Origin: Candidatus Magasanikiibacteriota bacterium
Lineage (GTDB): Bacteria; Patescibacteriota; Patescibacteriia; Magasanikbacterales; UBA922
Assembly (NCBI GenBank): GCA_018661775.1
Contig: JABJHO010000048.1
Coordinates: 1 to 46,147, forward strand
DNA length: 46,147 bases
Direction of reading: 5' to 3'
Shown: one piece after another, positions 7,857 through 14,792 of the stretch
Layout: each line of letters begins with the position of its first letter
Numbering within the stretch: the first letter of the stretch is position 1
Program-made: the position numbers and the translations under genes
Notes under the pieces: model-generated
Databases searched by the model: none
Told to the model about the DNA's origin: nothing
The model's input: the letters and a program-made list of their open reading frames with translations, nothing else

Positions 7857-8133
7857 TGACCAAGAGCAGTACAATTTGTCTAAAAACCCCGAGCATTTGG
7901 TGAATGAAGAAAGAATTTGGAGGCGAGGTAAAACGGTGCCAAAGGCACATAAGCCATCTGTTTGAGGAACAAAGTGATGAGTTTTGGCTTATGAGTTTTA
8001 CCGAGTCCCAAATTCTCTGAATGAGCCATCCGCTCGGCACTTTTTGCTCAACTTTTTGGTGCCAAAAAGTGGATTAATAAGAATTCAATGTATTGGGGTA
8101 GTGTCATTCCAAACTAGATATAAGAAATCTGTA
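7857..8133. repeat. MITE-like structured repeat, copy 1 (left end eroded)
   Basis: About 90% identical by eye to 9072-9345; nested helices CCGAGC/GCTCGG, AGAATTTGG/CCAAATTCT, GGTAAAAC/GTTTTACC, ATAAGCC/GGCTTAT, plus GTGCCaaaGGCAC and CACTTTTTG/CAAAAAGTG hairpins. Confidence 0.85.
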
Positions 8134-8153
8134 ATAAAAGAAGTGAAAAAACA

Positions 8154-8183
8154 AAAAACCACCTGAAATACAGATGGGTTTTT
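8154..8183 (-). terminator. terminator of the 8235-8822 gene
   Basis: Minus strand AAAAACCCATCTG-tattt-CAGGTGGTTTTTT. Confidence 0.65.
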
Positions 8184-8234
8184 GTTTCTCCTCCTCTACA
8201 ATGATATACGTGTATCACGTGAGAAGGGTTATGG

Positions 8235-8822
8235 TTAAGGAGCAGAGAGCAGTTTTGGTTCAGGGACCACCTGATCTTCAGTGCAGTACACATCAATATA
8301 CGATGGCTGACCAAGGGCGTGAAGCTCTTCAGTCTCCTCTTGACGCGCCTTATCAATCCTTACAACTTTGCCTCCTCCATAAATCTTTGGAAGGACGAGA
8401 TACGAATCATCAGGATCGTGAACATGCGCTGTTGCATACATCATATCCGCTGACATCTTCTCATACTCCTTCCTCGTTATGGACTGACCAGAAAACTGTT
8501 CTAGTCTTTGCATTTTTGCGGTACGGTCCTGATAAAACCAATACTGCAATCCCGGGAAGCAGCCATAGCGGAAGAGACTCTCAAGCTCCTCAATTACCGC
8601 CCTTCGCTGCTCAGTGTACGTTCCGGTACTCTGAGAGCCAACAAAGATTACGACATGAAATCCAAACCCATACTCTTCTTCAATTAGGATCCAGATAATA
8701 TTACCATTCTTAGGCCGCTTGTTTGCAACCAACTGACCAGCTAGGGTCGGCCTGCTACCACCAGAACTCTCTAAGCGCTGTTTAGCACGCCGCGTTTTAG
8801 CCCGCCGGCTTTTGCGAGACAT
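8235..8822 (-). CDS. hypothetical protein, 195 aa, no recognised family
   Basis: Own promoter (8865-8893), SD-like GAAAGGGGACATATG, own terminator; highly basic N-terminus MSRKSRRAKTRRAKQRLESSGG. Confidence 0.7.
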   Translation of the reverse strand: MSRKSRRAKTRRAKQRLESSGGSRPTLAGQLVANKRPKNGNIIWILIEEEYGFGFHVVIFVGSQSTGTYTEQRRAVIEELESLFRYGCFPGLQYWFYQDRTAKMQRLEQFSGQSITRKEYEKMSADMMYATAHVHDPDDSYLVLPKIYGGGKVVRIDKARQEETEELHALGQPSYIDVYCTEDQVVPEPKLLSAP

Positions 8823-8864
8823 ATGTCCCCTTTCAATTTTATAAGTTTAAAAAACACTGTCTCC

Positions 8865-8893
8865 ACCATACCACAAAACATACTATTTGTCAA
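8865..8893 (-). promoter_or_regulatory. sigma70-type promoter for the 8235-8822 gene
   Basis: Minus strand TTGACA-N17-TATGGT. Confidence 0.7.
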
Positions 8894-9039
8894 GTATATT
8901 GTGTGAATTTTTAGCATATTATCCTGTTTTTTGTTTATTTTTAGCTTAATTAAACTATTTTTTGCACTTCATTTTAGGCAGCATGTATGAAATCTGCAAT
9001 GTAATAAAAAGAGACTACTAGTATAAACCATTCATTGGT

Positions 9040-9345
9040 GCAGAAATAGATCTCTCTTCACACTGTTCATTGAGATGACAAGAAAAATTGTGTGAAAACA
9101 CCGAGCATTTGGGGAATGAAGAAAGAATTTGGAGGCGAGGGAAAACGGTGCCAAAGGCACATAAGCCATCTGTCTGAGGAACAAAGTGACGAGTTTTGGA
9201 TTATGAGTTTTACCGAGTCCCAAATTCTCTGAATGAGCCATCCGCTCGGCACTTTTTGCTCAACTTTTTGATGCCAAAAAGTGGATTAATAAAAAATTCA
9301 ATGTATTGGAGTAGTGTCATTTCGAACTGAAAGTGAGAAATCTGC
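9040..9345. repeat. MITE-like structured repeat, copy 2, with degenerate terminal inverted repeats
   Basis: Left GCAGAaatagATCTCTCttcacactgttcattgAGATGACA versus right TGTCATttcgaactgaaaGTGAGAAATCTGC in inverted orientation; interior aligns with 7857-8133 at a constant offset of about 1212 bp. Confidence 0.8.
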
Positions 9346-14259: not shown

Positions 14260-14266
14260 ATGCACT

Positions 14267-14671
14267 ATCTACAAGAGGTGATCGCTTAATATACTATTAA
14301 GAGGAAAGTCCGAACTCCTCGTGGAAACACGGTCGCGGTAGTGGGTAACACCCACCCAATATGTGGTGACACATGTTGCGGGAAAGTGCCACAGAGACTA
14401 TACTATTTTACTGCATTGCAGTGAAAAAAAGGTGAAAAGTGTGTACATGTGTGTATTCCATTCGCATATGCATGGAATGCACGCTAGTACACTCGCGTAC
14501 TGGCAACAGTATTGCGTGGTAAACCCTGCCTGGAGCAAGAGCAGCCCTTTTCAACACTTGTTGAAATTGGAAAAGTTCGTTCGCAAAGAATACCACAGTA
14601 ATGTGGTATCAAGATACATGATCATCCTCTGGATAAAACTAGAGAACAGAATTCGGCTTATTCTTGTAGAT
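14267..14671 (+). ncRNA. rnpB: RNase P RNA (class A-like)
   Basis: 5' GAGGAAAGTCCGAAC, AAGTGCCACAGAGA, CTGGCAACAGTATTGCGTGGTAAACCCTGCCTGGAGCAAG, 3' ACAGAATTCGGCTTATTC; ends pair perfectly as P1 (ATCTACAAGA/TCTTGTAGAT). Confidence 0.95.
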
Positions 14672-14673
14672 AT

Positions 14674-14706
14674 TAAAAAACACCATGATACCATGGTGTT
14701 TTTTTG
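14674..14706. terminator. bidirectional terminator between rnpB and tRNA-Leu
   Basis: AAAAAACACCATG-atac-CATGGTGTTTTTTT. Confidence 0.8.
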
Positions 14707-14792
14707 TGCTCAGAAGAGGACTCGAACCTCCACGACCGTTGCCAGTCACAAGGCCCTCAACCTTGCGCGTCTACCAGTTCCGCCACCTGAGC
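14707..14792 (-). tRNA. tRNA-Leu(GAG), no encoded CCA
   Basis: GCTCAGGTGGCGGAACTGGTAGACGCGCAAGGTTGAGGGCCTTGTGACTGGCAACGGTCGTGGAGGTTCGAGTCCTCTTCTGAGCA; long variable arm; anticodon loop TTGAGGG. Confidence 0.95.

Follow-up and report, generated by a model that had tools for sequence, protein, structure and literature searches.

A dispersed intergenic element with a covarying fold in Magasanikbacterales, probably a non-autonomous mobile element

The window analysed here, a stretch of 46,147 nucleotides of a Candidatus Magasanikiibacteriota contig, carries two copies of a dispersed element whose presence varies at orthologous sites and whose stems covary. The element is probably a non-autonomous mobile element of about 190–280 nt, conserved for the shape that one of its strands folds into; within this reading, an element acting at the DNA level (foldback or MITE-like) is slightly preferred over a family of RNA genes. 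The earlier note on this DNA had suggested "a MITE or mobile structured RNA", a suggestion supported by further copies, by covariation and by differences in presence and absence between sister species.

Copy 1 (7873–8131, + strand; repeat finder and genome search) is composed of a core at 7873–8083 followed by a 3' tail to 8131, and copy 2 (9085–9344, +; repeat finder) has its core at 9085–9295; the two cores form a gapless direct repeat of 211 nt with 95% identity, and the repeat goes on through the tails (8079–8131 and 9292–9344) over 53 nt at 83% identity. The duplication that the earlier note had placed at 7857–8133 and 9072–9345 is real, with the exception of its first 16 nt or so (7857–7872), which lie outside the repeat. 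The folded bodies, scored with the covariance model R1, occupy 7889–8037 in copy 1 (+; 180 bits, with covariation) and 9101–9249 in copy 2 (+; 173 bits). In copy 1 the body is closed by stem P1 (CCGAGC at 7889–7894 with GCTCGG at 8032–8037, +), inside which the first tandem G-A step, seen in the alignment and the loci, has its 5' side GGCGAGG at 7922–7928 (+) and its partner CCGAGTCC at 8001–8008; the alignment shows this step to be kept in homologues from another genus (G015). There follow the short junction hairpin P4 (GTGCC-AAA-GGCAC, 7936–7948, +; fold and alignment) and the long arm P5 (7949–7992, +; compensatory changes), whose apical motif, TGTTTGAG (7959–7966) ... GAGTTTT (7979–7985), recurs in the minimal types and in Ralstonia. 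Directly 3' of P1 stands CACUUUUUG, and the 3' module (8038–8071, +), conserved across families, consists of the tract CACTTTTTG (8038–8046) and then the hairpin AACTTTTTG/CAAAAAGTG. All eleven positions previously listed for the helix arms of copy 1 proved exact; in the case of the hairpin drawn between CACTTTTTG and CAAAAAGTG, the hairpin is present, its arms lying at about 8050–8059 and 8062–8071, so that the tract at 8038–8046 is a second copy of the 5' arm. Copy 2, as had been remarked, breaks two helices, with G-A at alignment pairs 41/112 and 65/100. Each copy ends in a REP-like repeat (GTCATTCCAAACTAGATATAAGAAATCTG at 8103–8131, +, in copy 1; 9316–9344, +, by the repeat finder, in copy 2), and a diverged repeat of the same kind (repeat family D3) lies upstream of copy 2 at 8969–8998 (+). 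The space between the copies holds an ORF of 195 aa (8235–8822, –), which has no match in Pfam or NCBIfam and no BLAST match at the corresponding spot of the sister species.

For the + strand the folding energy is –71 kcal/mol (z = –4.7; none of 200 dinucleotide shuffles is as good), and since the – strand reaches a nearly identical z of –4.68, energy alone does not tell the strand. In an alignment of nine copies, which was not fitted to the structure, seven of the 50 pairs change on both sides, amounting to 18 cells against 6.6 expected (0/500 shuffles); in an alignment of 15 copies from four genomes, which was so fitted and is favoured by it, two-sided changes affect 28 of the 50 pairs (at most 9 in the slid controls) and 115 cells against 37 in shuffles (again 0/500), with a covariation score of 0.44 compared to at most 0.09 for slid partners. 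The helices listed in the earlier note do covary. The loop of P4 is AAA, GCA or GTA and the apical loop AAA or GAA in all aligned copies, and in the divergent homologues the architecture is kept while the letters are new: from 5' to 3', a long stem, tandem G-A steps, a three-way junction, an arm with UGUYUGAGC..GCGAGUUU at its tip, a pyrimidine tract and a final hairpin, whose 5' arm repeats the tract. At pairs departing from the Watson-Crick majority, G-U outnumbers A-C by 14 to 5 (p 0.03); restricting the count to pairs that both strands are predicted to form gives 10 to 6 (p 0.23). This excess weakly supports the + strand as the folded one; it would fit RNA without separating RNA from single-stranded DNA.

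The search of the own genome (981 kb in 59 contigs) returned 19 full or partial matches, of which eight are complete bodies, one is truncated at a contig end and the rest are partial; the check for further copies proposed with the earlier note gave about ten long copies plus fragments at home, and homologues in other genera besides. Four of the copies (C24, C25, C39 and C54) are preceded by a shorter unit of about 100–120 bp having the first ~45 nt in common, and the REP-like repeat GTCATTTCGAAC...GTGAGAAATCTGTAATAA, which constitutes the 3' end of the element, is also found at the 5' side in several copies. A homologous copy is present in the sister species. Model R1 finds divergent homologues in two further genera, one copy in G009 (E 2e-13) and five in G015 (E 6e-7 to 4e-4), which differ strongly in letters; the G015 copies have the ends CGTTCACTCACTC / GAGTGAGTGAACG, and four copies in G045 show the same architecture in yet other letters. 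A minimal form, found at twelve loci spread over ten genomes within the same family, has the order P1, apical UGUYUGAGC...GCGAGUU, P1', then CACUUUUUG-UUACUUUUUG-GUGA-CAAAAAGUAA; with eight rows aligned in register, 6 of its 22 pairs are compensated (0/500 shuffles). The model of this form, R2, has matches in at least 12 of 384 genomes of the phylum, a lower bound as scoring covered 9 of the roughly 200 candidates in each genome, and among the matched genomes are members of at least seven other families belonging to other orders and classes; the closing stem and the tract-plus-hairpin module are common to the matches, and the bodies vary. Plain BLAST of the element found no match among plasmids; in phages it gave four 24-nt matches, judged to be chance, as was the one match among genome contigs, in Microbulbifer, situated inside an apparent coding sequence with no repeat around it. 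A literature search by the letters of the element returned only primers and the like.

Gain and loss were compared between the own genome (G000) and one other species of the genus (G001, taken in stretches of 20 kb). At the orthologous spot of the C25 copy and its short unit, the latter shows just GTGTCATATTGAAGCAGACGTAAGAAAACT, a REP-like remnant that lines up in register with the element's 3' repeat; at the yggU site it has the REP alone, as opposed to REP, short unit, hairpin and REP in G000 (C37); and in the gap between yidC and a glycosyltransferase gene, where the window has its two copies, it has only an 83-nt 3' fragment together with different genes. For the C36 copy there seems to be an orthologue in G001. 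Mobility is supported because presence and absence differ in this way between sister species: between the two species of the genus copies come and go, even if part of the difference could be due to loss.

The placement of the copies was read for 45 elements with both neighbours read: 19 gaps are anti-oriented, 13 co-oriented, 12 convergent and one divergent, so that convergent exceeds divergent (12 vs 1, p 0.003) and co-oriented does not differ from anti-oriented (13 vs 19, p 0.38), p values that are optimistic since neighbours were called from ORFs only and copies of the same genome are not independent. Divergent promoters are avoided, and no tendency of the elements to share the direction of the genes is seen. 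Within 120 nt, a REP-like core lies downstream of 20 of 48 elements and upstream of 3 of 48, against a background of 7.8%; REP-like GTCATTCC..GGAATC repeats, in either orientation, stand directly 3' of the elements at L024, L035, L122, L127, L124 and other loci. The neighbouring genes differ from copy to copy; none was seen to be common, and a conserved adjacent gene, of the kind expected for a riboswitch or leader, was rejected. It could be supposed that the element acts in cis in the 3'-UTR, protecting or ending the transcripts of the upstream gene as has been proposed for REP; the twelve-to-one avoidance of divergent gaps and the position of several copies soon after a stop codon speak for it, whereas the absence of an orientation preference with respect to the neighbours (13 vs 19), the antisense position of both window copies relative to their flanking genes, and an asymmetric and complex body, superfluous for a terminator, make it improbable. 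One minimal element (L036, 1410–1535) sits between putative pdxS and pdxT, 14 nt after the one and 19 nt before the other, with no obvious break of either gene.

A repeat with a similar end is found in proteobacteria, and it served as query outside the phylum. Its matches are intergenic and come from Ilyobacter, Pasteurella, Pseudoalteromonas, Burkholderia, Caballeronia and Ralstonia, with more than one copy in several cases. Multicopy elements lying between genes in Proteobacteria and Fusobacteriota have the 3' module too, and in Ralstonia also the tip. On one replicon of Ralstonia the tract is repeated ahead of the hairpin in all nine copies, and in eight of them a long stem is tipped by TGTYTGAGC..GCGAGTTT; in Ilyobacter the repeated tract is present in 7/7 copies and the TGTYTGAGC tip in none, and the pattern read backwards has zero occurrences. 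In Caballeronia the hairpins form inverted pairs about 473 bp apart, giving a foldback of about 580 nt with a hairpin at each end, a hint of something easier to see as DNA; the foldback at 186.6–187.2 kb of pNK81 (L136, 1490–2080) is 77% self-complementary, and eight inverted hairpin pairs are present on the replicon. A match there to Rfam Bp1_684 lies beyond the hairpin, outside the body, and was set aside. In Pseudoalteromonas, on a plasmid, the body of the element matches RF01731 (TwoAYGGAY), and four of the five such matches are followed by a tract-plus-hairpin module of the same kind. Common descent across phyla is plausible, not proven, given that short hairpins can converge.

TwoAYGGAY has been described as probably an RNA, of unknown function (Weinberg et al. 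2010, PMC2864571); two tandem G-A steps are reported for it, and it has been proposed to bind CsrA (PMC4333381). Compared by eye, the window element shares with it the long stem, the three-way junction, the short hairpin followed by a longer arm, and the tandem G-A steps; it differs in failing the RF01731 model and in carrying the apical UGUYUGAGC..GCGAGUUU in place of the two AYGGAY terminal loops. At 43 bits or more, RF01731 has no match in the window, in the divergent loci or in the 384 genomes of the phylum; the 14 controls gave none either, and the model does match the Pseudoalteromonas plasmid. Loose E-values on the element loci bring up only weak, below-threshold Rfam matches. The element resembles TwoAYGGAY in architecture and fails the defining tests of that family. 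The Rfam check of the window yielded RNase P and two tRNAs only, the element being left unmatched; at 14266–14792 the class A RNase P RNA (+) and a tRNA-Leu (gag) on the opposite strand are placed end to end, about 30 nt apart.

It is against this background that a multicopy structured non-coding RNA has to be weighed, each copy of which would be transcribed as a free RNA of the TwoAYGGAY type and titrate a protein, its dispersal being a by-product; P1 and the U-tract after it would be the terminator. Strong covariation, CACUUUUUG directly 3' of P1, the G-U excess on the + strand, and the match of the Pseudoalteromonas relatives to an Rfam RNA with proposed CsrA binding (PMC4333381) are all in keeping with such an RNA; yet no neighbour is conserved, copy number and position change fast, Ralstonia and Ilyobacter have UUUCUUUG as the tract, a poor terminator, and the AYGGAY loops are absent in the window element, and on balance we regard it as rather unlikely.

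The mobile element preferred here can be set beside known ones. Like a foldback MITE, it is short, non-coding, multicopy and intergenic, folds back, has no enzyme of its own and varies in presence and absence; unlike one, its fold is complex and asymmetric and its inner helices covary. No parent transposon was found for it; nor was a clean target-site duplication defined, which counts against a mobile element. The REP-like repeats directly 3' of the element recall the REP/BIME system (RAYT, Y1), but a REP is much smaller than this body and the own genome has no Y1 transposase (PF01797; five controls positive). The models of reverse transcriptase (PF00078, RVT_1) and TnpB (PF07282) have no match in this genome either; that no enzyme able to move the element was identified among these three families speaks against a mobile element. 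Compared by description only, BRE of Bordetella is likewise a dispersed, partly transcribed and suspected mobile betaproteobacterial repeat, though of about 90 bp, GC-rich and often tandem (PMC3110155).

The own genome does encode two tyrosine recombinases resembling ordinary XerC/D-type proteins, one of which (L101, 1462–2310, –; contig C1 of G000) lies near a uppS-like gene and has an IntI-like sequence that seems to lack the insert specific to integrons. Their presence, the XerC/IntI-like sequence of one of them, and the REP-like repeats flanking several copies on both sides would suit an attC-like or Xer-like recombination site, folded as single-stranded DNA by such an enzyme, with the REP-like repeats as partners; this is very improbable, even more so than the 3'-UTR element, as tyrosine recombinases are nearly universal (matched in 14/14 controls), no gene-cassette array was seen and attC core sites were not recognised by eye.

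For the non-autonomous mobile element, a possible scheme is the following. Exposed either as RNA or in the form of single-stranded DNA, the + strand would fold into P1–P3, a three-way junction with P4 and P5, and the 3' hairpin; the apical UGUYUGAGC..GCGAGUUU, the tandem G-A steps and the repeated pyrimidine tract might be the features recognised, and a protein supplied in trans would copy or move the element into intergenic, REP-containing sites, lineage-specific bursts swapping the letters while the fold is kept. More tentatively, and with the balance somewhat against it, the shared fold, the apical motif and the repeated-tract 3' hairpin may join the window element, the minimal forms of the phylum, the Ralstonia and Ilyobacter repeats and the TwoAYGGAY RNAs into one very old, bacteria-wide mobile superfamily, moved by machinery not yet described.

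A multicopy family that keeps its fold and changes its letters is unexpected in a streamlined genome of one megabase. If the link to TwoAYGGAY is true, what Rfam lists as a structured RNA of unknown function would be the body of a mobile element; such motifs would then be read differently, and the mover would become a concrete target of search.
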